In this document: one piece after another, positions 11,053-14,813 of the stretch | How the letters are laid out: the number at the start of each line of letters is the position of its first letter | How positions within the stretch are numbered: position 1 is the stretch's first letter | Assembly (NCBI RefSeq): GCF_012530535.1 | Contig: NZ_CP051299.1 | Coordinates: forward strand, 620,001 to 684,000 | Source: Microcella flavibacter | Lineage (GTDB): Bacteria; Actinomycetota; Actinomycetes; Actinomycetales; Microbacteriaceae | DNA: 64,000 nucleotides | Direction: 5' to 3' | Position numbers and translations under genes: made by a program | Notes under the pieces: generated by a model | The model's database searches: none | The model's input: only the letters and a program-made list of their open reading frames with translations | What the model was told of the DNA's origin: nothing

Positions 11053-11068
11053 CCACTACATCTAGTGG
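11053..11068 (+). promoter_or_regulatory. NrdR box 1 (candidate)
   Basis: CCACTACATCTAGTGG has perfect 6-base arms and resembles the NrdR consensus ACACTATATATAGTGT. It lies 33 bases upstream of a second copy, about three helical turns, the arrangement NrdR uses to repress ribonucleotide reductase operons. Confidence 0.65.
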
Positions 11069-11085: not shown

Positions 11086-11101
11086 CCCCGATATATAGTG
11101 G
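11086..11101 (+). promoter_or_regulatory. NrdR box 2 (candidate) overlapping -10
   Basis: CCCCGATATATAGTGG matches the right half and AT-rich core of the NrdR consensus. It contains the putative -10 TATAGT (11094-11099), which sits 17 bases after TGTCAA (11071-11076), so NrdR binding would block RNA polymerase. Confidence 0.6.
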
Positions 11102-11173: not shown

Positions 11174-13639
11174 GTGAGCATTACGGTCGTCAAGCGAGAC
11201 GGGTCGCGCGAGCCCTACGACGCCAACAAGATCAACCTGGCGATCGAGCACGCGGCCGTGGGTCTCGACCCCGACATCACGTGGGTCACGCAGATCGCGA
11301 GCGAGCTCGAGCTCACGCTGTTCGACGGCATCACGACGCAGCAGCTCGACGAGGCCGTCATCCAGGTCGCCCTGCAGAACATCAAGGACGACCCGGCGTT
11401 CGACATCGTCGCCGCGCGCCTCCTCCTCAAGACCATCTACAAGCGCGTGCTCGGCGACTACTCGACCCCGGCCGAGCTCAAGCAGCTGCACCGCGACCAC
11501 TTCTCCGCGTACATCCACCGCGGCGTGGACGAGCAGCTGCTCGATTCGCGGTTCCCGGCCCTGTTCGACCTCGACCGCCTCGCCGCGGCCCTCGAGCCGG
11601 CCCACGACGAGCTGCTGAAGTACATCGGCGTCGTCACGCTCAACAACCGCTACGGCATCAAGGCCCGCAACAACGAGCCCCTCGAGACCCCGCAGTACTT
11701 CTGGATGCGCGTGGCCATGGGCCTCTCGCTCAACGAGGCCGACGCCACGAGCCACGCCATCGCCTTCTACGAGAAGATGTCGAAGCTCGAGTACCTCGCG
11801 GCCGGCTCCACCCTCGTCAACGCGGGCACCAGCTACCCGCAGCTCTCGAACTGCTTCGTGATGGAGATGCAGGACGACATCGAGCACATCGCCAAGAGCG
11901 TGCGCGACGTCATGTGGCTCACCAAGGGCACCGGCGGCATCGGCCTCTCGGTCACCAAGCTGCGCGCCCAGGGCTCGCCCATCCGCTCGAACAACACCTC
12001 CTCCACCGGTCCGATCCCCTTCATGCACACGATCGACTCGGTGCTGCGCGCGGTCAGCCGCGGCGGCAAGAAGTTCGGCGCCCTGTGCTTCTACATGGAG
12101 AACTGGCACATGGACTTCCCGGAGTTCCTCGACCTGCGTCAGAACTCCGGCGACCCCTACCGCCGCACCCGCACCGCCAACACCGCGGTCTGGATCAGCG
12201 ACGAGTTCATGAAGCGCGTGCAGAACGACGAGGACTGGTACCTCTTCGACCCGCTCGAGGTCAGCGACCTCAACGAGCTCTACGGCAAGGAGTTCTCGAC
12301 CCGGTACGCCGAGTACGTGGCGATGGCCGAGCGCGGCGAGCTGAAGATGTTCAAGAAGCTCGGCGCCCGCGAGCAGTTCAAGCAGATCCTCATCTCGCTG
12401 CAGTCCACGAGCCACCCGTGGCTCACGTGGAAGGACACGATCAACAACCGCGCCATCAACAACAACACCGGCACGATCCACCTGTCGAACCTCTGCACCG
12501 AGATCTGCCTGCCGCAGGACCGCGACAACATCTCGGTCTGCAACCTGGCCTCGATCAACCTCTCGCGCCACATCGAGAACGGGCGCATCGACTTCGCGAA
12601 GATCGAGGAGAGCGCCCGCCTCGCGGTGCGCCAGCTCGACAACCTCATCGACATCACCGTGTCGAGCGTCGACGAGGCCGACCACGCCAACCAGAACAAC
12701 CGCGCCATCGGCCTGGGCGTCATGGGCTTCACCGACGTCGTCGAGAAGCTGGGCTTCTCGTACGAGTCGGAGGAGGCCTTCGACCTCATCGACGAGATCA
12801 TGGAGCACGTCTCCTACGCGGCGATCGACGAGTCGACCGAGCTGGCGAAGGAGCGCGGCTCGTACGCGAACTTCGAGGGCTCGCGCTGGTCGCAGGGCCT
12901 CGTGCCGCTCGACACGATCGACCTCACCGAGGCCGACCGCGGCCTCGAGGTGCAGGTCAACCGCACGACGCGCCTCGACTGGGACGCGCTGCGCGCCAAG
13001 GTCAAGGGCGGCATGCGCAACGCGACGCTCATGGCCATCGCGCCCACGGCGTCCATCGGTCTCGTCGCCGGCACCACGCCCGGCCTCGACCCGCAGTTCT
13101 CGCAGATCTTCAGCCGCTCCACGAGCTCGGGCAAGTTCCTCGAGGTCAACCGCAACCTCGTCGCGACCCTGCGCGAGCACGGCCTGTGGGAGCGCGTGCG
13201 CGAGAGCATCCTGCGCAGCCAGGGCGACATCCAGAACATCGCCGAGATCCCCGACGAGATCAAGGCCACGTACAAGACGAGCTTCCAGCTCTCGCCGTAC
13301 GCGTTCCTCGAGGTCGCCGCGCGCGCCCAGAAGTGGATCGACCAGGCCATCAGCCGCAACATGTACCTCGAGACGCGCGACGTCGACGAGATGGTCGACA
13401 TCTACACCGCCGCGTGGAAGAAGGGCGTGAAGACGACCTACTACCTGCACATGAAGCCGCGCCACACGGCCGAGCAGTCGACGGTCAAGGTCAACAAGGC
13501 CGAGGCCATCAATTCGGGCAACGCGAGCGGGCGCAAGGGCTTCGGCGCCGCGTCCTCCTCGGCTCCGGCCGCTGCTCCGGCTGCCGCCGCCCCCGCCCGC
13601 AAGGGCTTCGGCTTCGGCGGCGCGAAGGCGGGCAGCTGA
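11174..13639 (+). CDS. nrdA: Ribonucleoside-diphosphate reductase alpha subunit, lacking the C-terminal redox cysteines
   Basis: An 821-residue class I large subunit that makes deoxyribonucleotides. An ATP-cone occupies about residues 1-92. Active-site residues are visible: Cys227 (LSNCF), Asn439, Cys441 and Glu443 (SNLCTE), Cys456 (VCNLAS) and the radical-relay pair Tyr756-Tyr757 (TTYYLHM). After an Ala/Gly-rich linker the ORF stops with KAGS. The usual C-terminal CxxC-type tail that re-reduces the active site is absent here and appears instead in a 41-codon ORF overlapping the stop (TGATG) in the -1 frame. GTG start preceded by GAGAGGAG. Likely NrdR-regulated through two upstream boxes. Confidence 0.93.
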   Translation: MSITVVKRDGSREPYDANKINLAIEHAAVGLDPDITWVTQIASELELTLFDGITTQQLDEAVIQVALQNIKDDPAFDIVAARLLLKTIYKRVLGDYSTPAELKQLHRDHFSAYIHRGVDEQLLDSRFPALFDLDRLAAALEPAHDELLKYIGVVTLNNRYGIKARNNEPLETPQYFWMRVAMGLSLNEADATSHAIAFYEKMSKLEYLAAGSTLVNAGTSYPQLSNCFVMEMQDDIEHIAKSVRDVMWLTKGTGGIGLSVTKLRAQGSPIRSNNTSSTGPIPFMHTIDSVLRAVSRGGKKFGALCFYMENWHMDFPEFLDLRQNSGDPYRRTRTANTAVWISDEFMKRVQNDEDWYLFDPLEVSDLNELYGKEFSTRYAEYVAMAERGELKMFKKLGAREQFKQILISLQSTSHPWLTWKDTINNRAINNNTGTIHLSNLCTEICLPQDRDNISVCNLASINLSRHIENGRIDFAKIEESARLAVRQLDNLIDITVSSVDEADHANQNNRAIGLGVMGFTDVVEKLGFSYESEEAFDLIDEIMEHVSYAAIDESTELAKERGSYANFEGSRWSQGLVPLDTIDLTEADRGLEVQVNRTTRLDWDALRAKVKGGMRNATLMAIAPTASIGLVAGTTPGLDPQFSQIFSRSTSSGKFLEVNRNLVATLREHGLWERVRESILRSQGDIQNIAEIPDEIKATYKTSFQLSPYAFLEVAARAQKWIDQAISRNMYLETRDVDEMVDIYTAAWKKGVKTTYYLHMKPRHTAEQSTVKVNKAEAINSGNASGRKGFGAASSSAPAAAPAAAAPARKGFGFGGAKAGS

Positions 13640-13764
13640 TGTCGGGCACCGCGACGGCGCCCGTCGCCACGACGCCCGCCACCGAATACTTCGCCGCTGA
13701 GTCCTATTCCTACGTGGTCCCGATCGACCCGATGGACGAACTGCACTGCGAGAGCTGCCAGTAG
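13639..13764 (+). CDS. Detached redox tail of ribonucleotide reductase alpha (CESCQ peptide)
   Basis: A 41-codon ORF whose ATG shares one base with the nrdA stop (TGATG). It is Thr/Ala/Pro-rich at first and ends PMDELHCESCQ, which looks like the C-terminal cysteine pair of class I large subunits. It is in the -1 frame relative to nrdA. Three explanations fit: a separate peptide made by translational coupling, a C-terminal extension made by -1 frameshifting, or a frameshift or sequence error that split a fused gene. No canonical slippery heptamer is visible near the stop. The motif identity is well supported; the mechanism is open. Confidence 0.7.
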   Translation: MSGTATAPVATTPATEYFAAESYSYVVPIDPMDELHCESCQ

Positions 13765-13829: not shown

Positions 13830-14813
13830 ATGGGCATTCTCGGCACCGGCATCCAGGAGGGCCTCCTCCTCAAGCCCGTCACCTATCAGTGGGCGATGGA
13901 CCTCTACGACCAGGCTGTGGCCAACACCTGGTTCCCCAACGAGGTGCAGCTCGGCGAGGACATCGCCGACTTCAAGAAGATGACGGACGAAGAGCGTCAC
14001 GCCATCACGTTCCTCATGAGCTACTTCAACCCGAACGAGCTGCTCGTCAACAAGGCGCTCGCGTTCGGCGTCTACCCCTACGTCAAGGCTCCCGAGGCGC
14101 ACCTCTACCTCGCGAAGCAGATGTGGGAGGAGGCGAACCACTGCATGAGCTTCGAGTACGTGCTGGAGACCTTCCCGATCGACCGCGTGGCCGCGTACGA
14201 CAGCCACATCGACGTCCCCTCGATGGCGCGCAAGGAGGAGTTCGAGGTCAAGTTCATCAAGCGCATGACCGAGGACACCCTCGACATCACCACCACCGAG
14301 GGCAAGCAGGACTTCATCCGCAACCTCGTGGCGTACAACGTCATCCTCGAGGGCATCTGGTTCTACTCGGGCTTCATGGTGGCGCTGTCGTTCCGCCAGC
14401 GGAACCTGCTGCGCAACTTCGGCTCGCTCGTCGACTGGATCGTGCGCGACGAGTCGCTGCACCTGAAGTTCGGCATGAACCTCATCCTCACCGTGCTGGA
14501 GGAGAACGAAGACCTTCAGACGGAGGAGTTCGCCGCCGAGATCCGCCAGATGATCCTCGACGCGGTCGAGATGGAGTCGGCGTACAACCACGACCTGCTG
14601 CCCAACGGCATCCTCGGTCTGAACGCCAACTACATCAACCAGTACGTCAAGTACCTGGCCGACCGTCGCCTCGAGGAGCTCGGCTTCGAGCCCGAGTACA
14701 ACGTGTCGAACCCGGCGAAGTGGATGGCGACGGCGAACGACACGCTGCAGCTCGTCAACTTCTTCGAGTCGACGAACACCTCCTACGAGGTCAACGCCAA
14801 GACCTCGGCGTAG
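13830..14813 (+). CDS. nrdB: Ribonucleoside-diphosphate reductase beta subunit, class Ic-like (tyrosine-less R2)
   Basis: A 327-residue ferritin-like small subunit that generates the radical for NrdA. Metal ligands are Glu70, Glu101, His104, Glu174, Glu208 and His211; their spacings (31, 34 and 37) equal those of E. coli R2 (84/115, 204/238/241). The first ligand is Glu instead of Asp, and the radical-tyrosine position (His104 plus 4) is Phe108. Both substitutions are the signature of class Ic R2, first known from Chlamydia, which uses a Mn(IV)/Fe(III) cofactor instead of a tyrosyl radical. GAAAGG precedes the ATG. It is operonic with nrdA and its tail ORF. Confidence 0.93.
   Translation: MGILGTGIQEGLLLKPVTYQWAMDLYDQAVANTWFPNEVQLGEDIADFKKMTDEERHAITFLMSYFNPNELLVNKALAFGVYPYVKAPEAHLYLAKQMWEEANHCMSFEYVLETFPIDRVAAYDSHIDVPSMARKEEFEVKFIKRMTEDTLDITTTEGKQDFIRNLVAYNVILEGIWFYSGFMVALSFRQRNLLRNFGSLVDWIVRDESLHLKFGMNLILTVLEENEDLQTEEFAAEIRQMILDAVEMESAYNHDLLPNGILGLNANYINQYVKYLADRRLEELGFEPEYNVSNPAKWMATANDTLQLVNFFESTNTSYEVNAKTSA

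Follow-up and report, generated by a model that had tools for sequence, protein, structure and literature searches.

A class I ribonucleotide reductase redox tail encoded apart from nrdA in Microbacteriaceae and on phages and plasmids

In the 64,000-nucleotide stretch of the Microcella flavibacter genome analysed here (the window), nrdA, the gene for the catalytic subunit of a class I ribonucleotide reductase (RNR), ends after a linker, and the C-terminal cysteines, for which a redox role is presumed, lie on a separately encoded polypeptide, the product of a 41-codon open reading frame (ORF) between nrdA and nrdB. RNR is an essential enzyme whose redox tail has been described as part of the catalytic chain. 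We regard it as very probable that the tail of this enzyme is a free, separately translated peptide which acts in trans. The evidence for this interpretation comes from the conservation of the separate ORF across the family, whose members live in soil and water, from its derivation from a fused tail, from its co-occurrence with one type of NrdA, and from additional copies that stand far from nrdA, usually behind NrdR-type boxes, or are carried by phages and plasmids.

A separate tail gene behind nrdA

The window belongs to a genome assembled as one contig of 2.62 Mb, and the features of its RNR operon are collected in Table 1. The nrdA gene has a GTG start and 821 codons, its product has the C-terminus ...RKGFGFGGAKAGS, and its TGA stop (13637-13639) has one base in common with the ATG of the tail ORF (13639-13641). 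The tail ORF ends at 13764 with VPIDPMDELHCESCQ, which includes the putative redox pair CESC (13747-13758), and nrdB starts 65 nucleotides (nt) past this end. The earlier note on this DNA had described an nrdA that stops after a linker and a 41-codon ORF that starts in a TGATG stop and ends in HCESCQ, a description which the coordinates and the ORFs confirm.

Table 1. Features of the RNR operon in the window
Feature	Position	Strand	Remark
nrdA, encoding a class I RNR catalytic subunit that lacks the redox tail	11174..13639	+	
Ala/Pro-rich linker and GFG motif, C-terminal part of NrdA	13560..13636	+	
TGATG stop/start overlap, nrdA to tail ORF	13637..13641	+	
Separate redox-tail ORF	13639..13764	+	41 amino acids, MSGTATAPVATTPATEYFAAESYSYVVPIDPMDELHCESCQ
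Conserved tail core and stop	13726..13764 (= G000:C1:633726-633764)	+	DPMDELHCESCQ
nrdB, radical-generating subunit	13830..14813	+	
NrdR-type box 1 upstream of nrdA	11053..11068	.	palindrome, CCACTACATCTAGTGG
NrdR-type box 2 upstream of nrdA	11086..11101	.	palindrome, CCCCGATATATAGTGG

The large subunit is a class I NrdA. The ATP-cone, lgN and lgC domains (PF03477, PF00317, PF02867) are all found above the Pfam cut-offs, the NCBIfam family is NF005101, and a partner gene whose product is a class I R2 protein by Pfam and NCBIfam is present in the same operon. The closest solved structure by sequence for the NrdA core is PDB 5im3 (E 2.1e-196), an enzyme of P. aeruginosa that is not known to be split. 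The cysteines of SNCF, NLCTEI and VCNLAS in the window NrdA align with cysteines of 5im3 and are the active-site cysteines, counterparts of E. coli C225, C439 and C462. A C-terminal cysteine pair was not found in the same chain: NrdA ends in ...GGAKAGS, and the pair is on the next ORF. The 41-residue product of that ORF belongs to no Pfam or NCBIfam family at the limits used, and in Pfam, NCBIfam and PHROGs it has only weak matches below cut-offs or with E of at least 0.035. Identity as a thioredoxin, a glutaredoxin or an NrdH-type redoxin was considered and rejected, there being no match to such a domain in these three collections.

The separate arrangement is conserved well beyond the window, more than chance would allow. 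The genus sample comprised 26 genomes, 24 of them with an NrdA match, and each of the 24 NrdA loci whose 3' end could be read is split. The family sample comprised 199 genomes, of which 193 have an RNR match, assigned by E-value to the NrdA type in 91 and to the NrdE type in 102. Genus and family together yielded 110 NrdA loci for examination, two of which are cut by a contig end, leaving 108 readable (NrdA pieces without a 3' end in G047 and G125, and the second pieces of G064, G079 and G148, lie outside the 110). A separate tail ORF follows nrdA in 102 of these 108 loci and is absent there in six. Five loci (L092, L095, L101, L105, L124) have no tail, not even a degenerate one, in any frame within 300 nt past nrdA, and in two of them (L101, L105) about 10 nt separate the nrdA stop from the start of nrdB. 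In a metagenome-assembled genome (MAG; L118, G034) the tail is present and the NrdA frame runs on past the place of the stop, perhaps through an assembly slip. This last case illustrates that single errors may occur at this point, but nothing in the window's strain itself suggests that its split arose by mutation or faulty sequencing. With 102 of 108 loci split, several of them in one-contig genomes, that explanation, which the earlier note had considered, is excluded: the tail is separate in nearly all readable NrdA loci of genus and family, and the strain is no exception.

The motif by which tails were found fixes D-P-M, both cysteines and the last glutamine, and the constancy of these letters is therefore built in, although four of the six loci missed by a narrower motif (L102, L119, L123, L127) keep them on inspection. 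Conservation extends to positions that the motif constrains only in part or not at all: among the 102 operons, the D after M is kept in 101, S in 101 and L in 98. The core codons vary synonymously, with CCG 71, CCC 27, CCA 3 and CCT 1 for the core proline and AGC 62, TCC 28, TCG 10 and AGT 1 for the core serine. Under the start rule applied here, in which the first ATG or GTG from four bases before the nrdA stop onward was taken, the whole peptide is 21-57 residues long, its N-terminal part being variable in length and sequence. At L007, L011 and L023 the linker of the tail ORF contains a palindromic insert (around GAGATCGCATCGCGATCTC) which keeps the frame and resembles a small repeat element in a coding region; the start of the peptide at L474 is similar to this insert. 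On the side of the catalytic subunit, a [RK][RKG]GFG motif occurs within the last 35 residues of 101 of the 102 split NrdAs, and a similar motif occurs in 33 of 34 fused ones. The GFG motif before the stop, in the window within 13540-13625, is a possible docking site.

The geometry of the junction bears on how the tail could be made. Relative to nrdA, 87 operons have the tail in frame +2, 10 have it in frame 0 behind the stop and 5 in frame +1; the nrdA stops ahead of it are TGA in 67, TAA in 26 and TAG in 9. Tail starts are at -1 or +2 in 79 of the 102 operons, while two lie 60 and 61 nt past the stop. A tetramer resembling a Shine-Dalgarno sequence precedes 75 of the 102 starts, as against 12, 15, 31 and 44 when the position is shifted 45, 60, 90 and 120 nt upstream. 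Translational coupling fits these start positions, tetramers and varied frames, and a fused product does not. The contrary proposal, in which some of the NrdA chains receive the tail through programmed frameshifting or read-through of the stop, could point to the tail frame that is open far upstream in the window and to the 10 operons in which the tail lies in the NrdA frame behind the stop. A programmed frameshift needs a constant frame relation, however, whereas all three frames and all three stops are used, starts lie as far as 61 nt from the stop, and tails also stand alone or, in one viral record, upstream of nrdA. A fused product is thus very improbable, and the -1 frameshift of the earlier note is contradicted by the frames and by the copies far from nrdA. 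Its other suggestion, that translational coupling yields a free tail, gains support from the comparative data and is extended by them; the expression itself we infer.

Origin from a fused tail

The same tail is fused in-frame in 33 of 34 outgroup NrdAs with a readable end, which have 64-76% identity to the window NrdA. At 68-76% identity it is fused in all 33 readable proteins (L053-L068 and L129-L147; L135 and L144 continue past the contig end and are not counted), ending in ...ACPVDPMERLQCESCQ, ACPVDPQERLQCESCQ and similar sequences, and more distant NrdAs within the class and the phylum end in fused CxxCQ or CxxCD tails. The fused-tail NrdAs of other Actinomycetes at 68-76% identity are the same enzyme and have an orthologous core, CP-x-DP...C-[ED]-[SA]-CQ, but they carry it in one chain, on a linker; in most of the free tails compared, the cysteine of the fused ACP or VCP is replaced by V. 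In 34 fused proteins (the 33 and L069), linker and tail extend 50-219 residues (median 76) past the core end VKVNK.

A FastTree phylogeny of 144 NrdA cores places all 87 split rows in one clade and needs a single change from fused to split. The split rows consist of 80 with a tail and 7 in which no tail was found (L116, which is cut off, and the frame case L118 are among them); 56 rows were counted as fused (L135 and L144 by default), L148 was left unlabelled, and the genus was thinned to 6 rows. As judged from these alignments and this tree, the core of the free tail is orthologous to the fused redox tail, and the split has a single origin.

Copies away from nrdA

The tail also exists as an independent gene. 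With up to two mismatches allowed, a degenerate core pattern was run on eight genomes, namely six without a normal operon tail together with G000 (the window's genome) and G084. All eight hold a tail copy away from nrdAB (that of G040 with one mismatch), and the reversed pattern, used as a control, gave no match in any of the eight. The second tail gene of the window's genome (G000:C1:2330208-2330246) encodes 27 amino acids, MDNDNETIGGYAVPVDPMDMLQCESCQ. Five genomes that lack the operon tail all carry a tail elsewhere. Four of the five have no PF02867 match other than this NrdA (one of them, G200, is 88% complete), and the fifth, G161, has two. The possibility that a second RNR excuses the loss of the tail was rejected, as G000 has a single RNR large subunit and 8 of the 11 genomes tested have one PF02867 match; the three with two matches (G099, G161, G212) all belong to one genus.

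Across the family sample, the core pattern with one mismatch allowed finds a copy in 94 of 199 genomes, and these follow the type of RNR closely: a copy is present in 91 of 91 NrdA genomes versus 1 of 102 NrdE-only genomes, and in 2 of 6 genomes without an RNR match (Fisher p 1.7e-55 for the co-occurrence with NrdA, kinship not corrected for). In two genera, g53 and g69, tails are confined to the NrdA species. At least two copies are present in 81 of the 91 NrdA genomes, and at least one in all 26 genomes of the genus. Conservation together with this co-occurrence rules out a relic of a lost tail.

A copy is here called stand-alone if it has no nrdA or nrdB within the examined flanks, at least 1.5 kb on either side for most; this is the case for 104 of 188 cellular copies. 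The tail also occurs in at least 120 stretches of a general contig collection, and among the 120 matches listed 68 are stand-alone, 51 are in operons and 1 is at an edge, the contig titles being mostly Microbacteriaceae or unplaced MAGs, with a few MAGs labelled Acidobacteria or Cellulomonadaceae. The stand-alone copies weigh on a further alternative, in which the peptide is free but has its main job elsewhere, as an nrdB leader peptide, an assembly factor or a regulator of NrdA. The operon copy does lie directly ahead of nrdB, but more than half of the cellular copies have neither gene near them, the core is orthologous to the fused redox tail with both cysteines kept, and the accompanying NrdA has lost its own tail. 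A main job elsewhere is accordingly improbable, although less so than a fused product.

Many stand-alone copies have promoter elements in common with nrdA. The NrdR box and its paired arrangement have been characterized, with best binding at a spacing of about three helix turns (PMC9110341 and PMC12051234). The two boxes upstream of the window nrdA are 33 bp apart from start to start, and an nrdR gene is present in the genome. A scan of unique 260-nt upstream stretches for a pair of TATATAG and A-x-AT-x-T elements at 31-33 bp found such a pair upstream of 43 of 48 nrdA genes in the split clade and of 71 of 97 stand-alone cellular tail copies (32-33 bp from centre to centre), against none of 70 operon copies and 6 of 1374 background stretches, some of which may be nrdA promoters. 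Most stand-alone copies thus have putative NrdR sites at about the spacing of three helix turns. With a weight matrix trained on 69 nrdA promoters and scored against each copy's own controls, 30 of 36 and 49 of 67 stand-alone copies (two sets) exceed their highest control, and none of the viral copies does; five strong sites among the controls of operon loci are presumably nrdA promoters. Neither the extra copies behind NrdR-type boxes nor the phage and plasmid copies were foreseen by the earlier note.

The exact tail pattern occurs in at least 120 IMG/VR contigs. Among the 120 listed, the flanking DNA of 115 contains no relative of this nrdA or nrdB, 2 are close to such genes, 1 adjoins nrdB and 2 are at an edge. 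By tblastn, four named phages carry the tail, namely Clavibacter phages CN1A and CMP1, Pontimonas phage phiPsal1 and Pseudanabaena phage Pan2, at E 0.02-0.2, so that its identification in phages depends on the motif rather than on these E-values; the locus is without an annotated feature in three of these phages and is a hypothetical protein in the fourth. By tblastn the tail is also present in 19 plasmid records (Clavibacter 15, Leifsonia 3, Gryllotalpicola 1). The plasmid copy of Leifsonia sp. ZF2019 (L484, WP_223361114.1) has the RefSeq name 'ribonucleotide-diphosphate reductase subunit beta', which was probably carried over in error from the operon neighbour. The additional cysteine characteristic of fused tails (CP before x-DP) persists in some phage tails (L244, L278, L295, L323, L354, L481), a possible sign of hosts outside Microbacteriaceae. 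Viral tails of a DPQE type were not found in any contig with the one pattern tried.

PF02867 was looked for in 43 mobile records, consisting of 38 viral contigs picked by length from the 120, the 4 phages and 1 plasmid; 42 showed no RNR catalytic subunit, though the viral contigs may be fragments. The exception is a viral record (G932) with the order tail-nrdA-nrdB, in which NrdA is again without its own tail; near query residue 510 this nrdA (L290) appears to have an insert of about 700 nt in open frame, possibly an intein. That phage and plasmid copies work against the host enzyme, as decoys or competitors, would agree with the frequent subversion of host metabolism by phages. The core and both cysteines are nevertheless kept in these copies, by the search motif and in the translations, and one record holds tail, nrdA and nrdB together; a decoy role is unlikely, if the least so of the alternatives considered here, and support of the host enzyme is the role we favour.

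A control scan of viral contigs for the E. coli type of tail end revealed a possible second case. Of 20 such ends, 13 belong to frames open over 203-786 codons, which is what NrdA genes would show. In the other 7, on viral contigs of 261-268 kb, an unlinked ORF of 54 amino acids ends in DGCESGACKI (L503:6513-6677; also L491, L495, L498, L499, L501 and L505), and no NrdA was found in the stretch around it. An ORF of this type and length is present in Erwinia phage pEa_SNUABM_35 (20808-20972), and 48 phage records contain relatives at E 0.01 (Erwinia 39, Klebsiella 5, Dickeya 2, Stenotrophomonas 1, Raoultella 1), annotated as hypothetical in the 30 listed. This jumbo-phage ORF is a possible independent instance of a free RNR tail.

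Proposed mechanism and relation to known enzymes

The interpretation of the tail as a trans-acting peptide suggests the following scheme. In the ancestor of this NrdA clade, a stop codon would have cut off the tail, which then gained its own start. Since fused tails already sit on flexible linkers, cutting the linker would turn a tethered reaction into a bimolecular one; work on yeast Rnr1 is said to have found that the tail acts across the dimer. Once translated, the peptide would bind NrdA by means of the conserved Y-x-VP-x-DPMD-x-L segment ahead of CxxCQ, its CxxC pair would reduce the active-site disulfide left after each turnover, and thioredoxin or a similar protein would reduce the peptide again. 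The operon copy would be made by translational coupling with nrdA, whereas the second copy, in most cases with tandem NrdR-type boxes ahead of it and potentially under the control of NrdR, would add peptide when deoxyribonucleoside triphosphates (dNTPs) are low. Phage and plasmid copies would probably support the host enzyme, to the possible benefit of the phages. A bolder version, to which we give an even chance, is that the peptide is a diffusible, gene-dosed redox cofactor, that cells set RNR turnover by producing more of it under NrdR control, and that phages and plasmids lacking an RNR catalytic gene use it to raise the dNTPs of the host, with the jumbo phages as a second, independent case.

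Several observations weigh against the proposal of a trans-acting tail. Conservation is slight in the N-terminal half of the peptide. A one-mismatch tail (L200, G164:C18:26839-26877) occurs in G164, a genome whose RNR is of the NrdE type only. The box pair is missing from 26 of the 97 stand-alone copies (L179 among them) and from all 110 viral copies. Finally, one NrdA from outside the family (L148, G652), with 64% identity to that of the window, ends without a tail; nrdB was not found beside it, and the motif tried found no tail in two 19.9-kb stretches around it (L487, L488).

The nearest known parallel is the split class II RNR of Pseudomonas aeruginosa, NrdJa/NrdJb, in which the C-terminal cysteines for dithiol exchange are also on a separate polypeptide encoded in the same operon, and in which NrdJb is needed in vivo (PMC4520616). 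That enzyme is B12-dependent and its NrdJb has 229 residues, whereas the window encodes a class I NrdA and NrdB; the parts of the source that were available do not describe stand-alone, phage-borne or NrdR-box copies (PMC4520616). Class I nrdA genes in pieces are known from phages, as in nrdA-a/nrdA-b of Aeromonas phage Aeh1, but split phage RNR genes are mostly interrupted by introns, inteins or endonuclease genes, and a detached redox tail is not described in what was available of that account (PMC3653736). In the open-licence literature no report was found of a free class I RNR tail, whether free-standing or phage-borne. A separately encoded redox part is already known in class II, and the class I case is new as far as could be found.

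An enzyme with a naturally free tail would allow docking, thiol exchange and re-reduction, the three steps of tail function, to be measured separately. It also raises the question of how the family lives with a bimolecular step in its supply of DNA precursors. The phage-borne copies of the tail, for their part, would be very small auxiliary metabolic genes.

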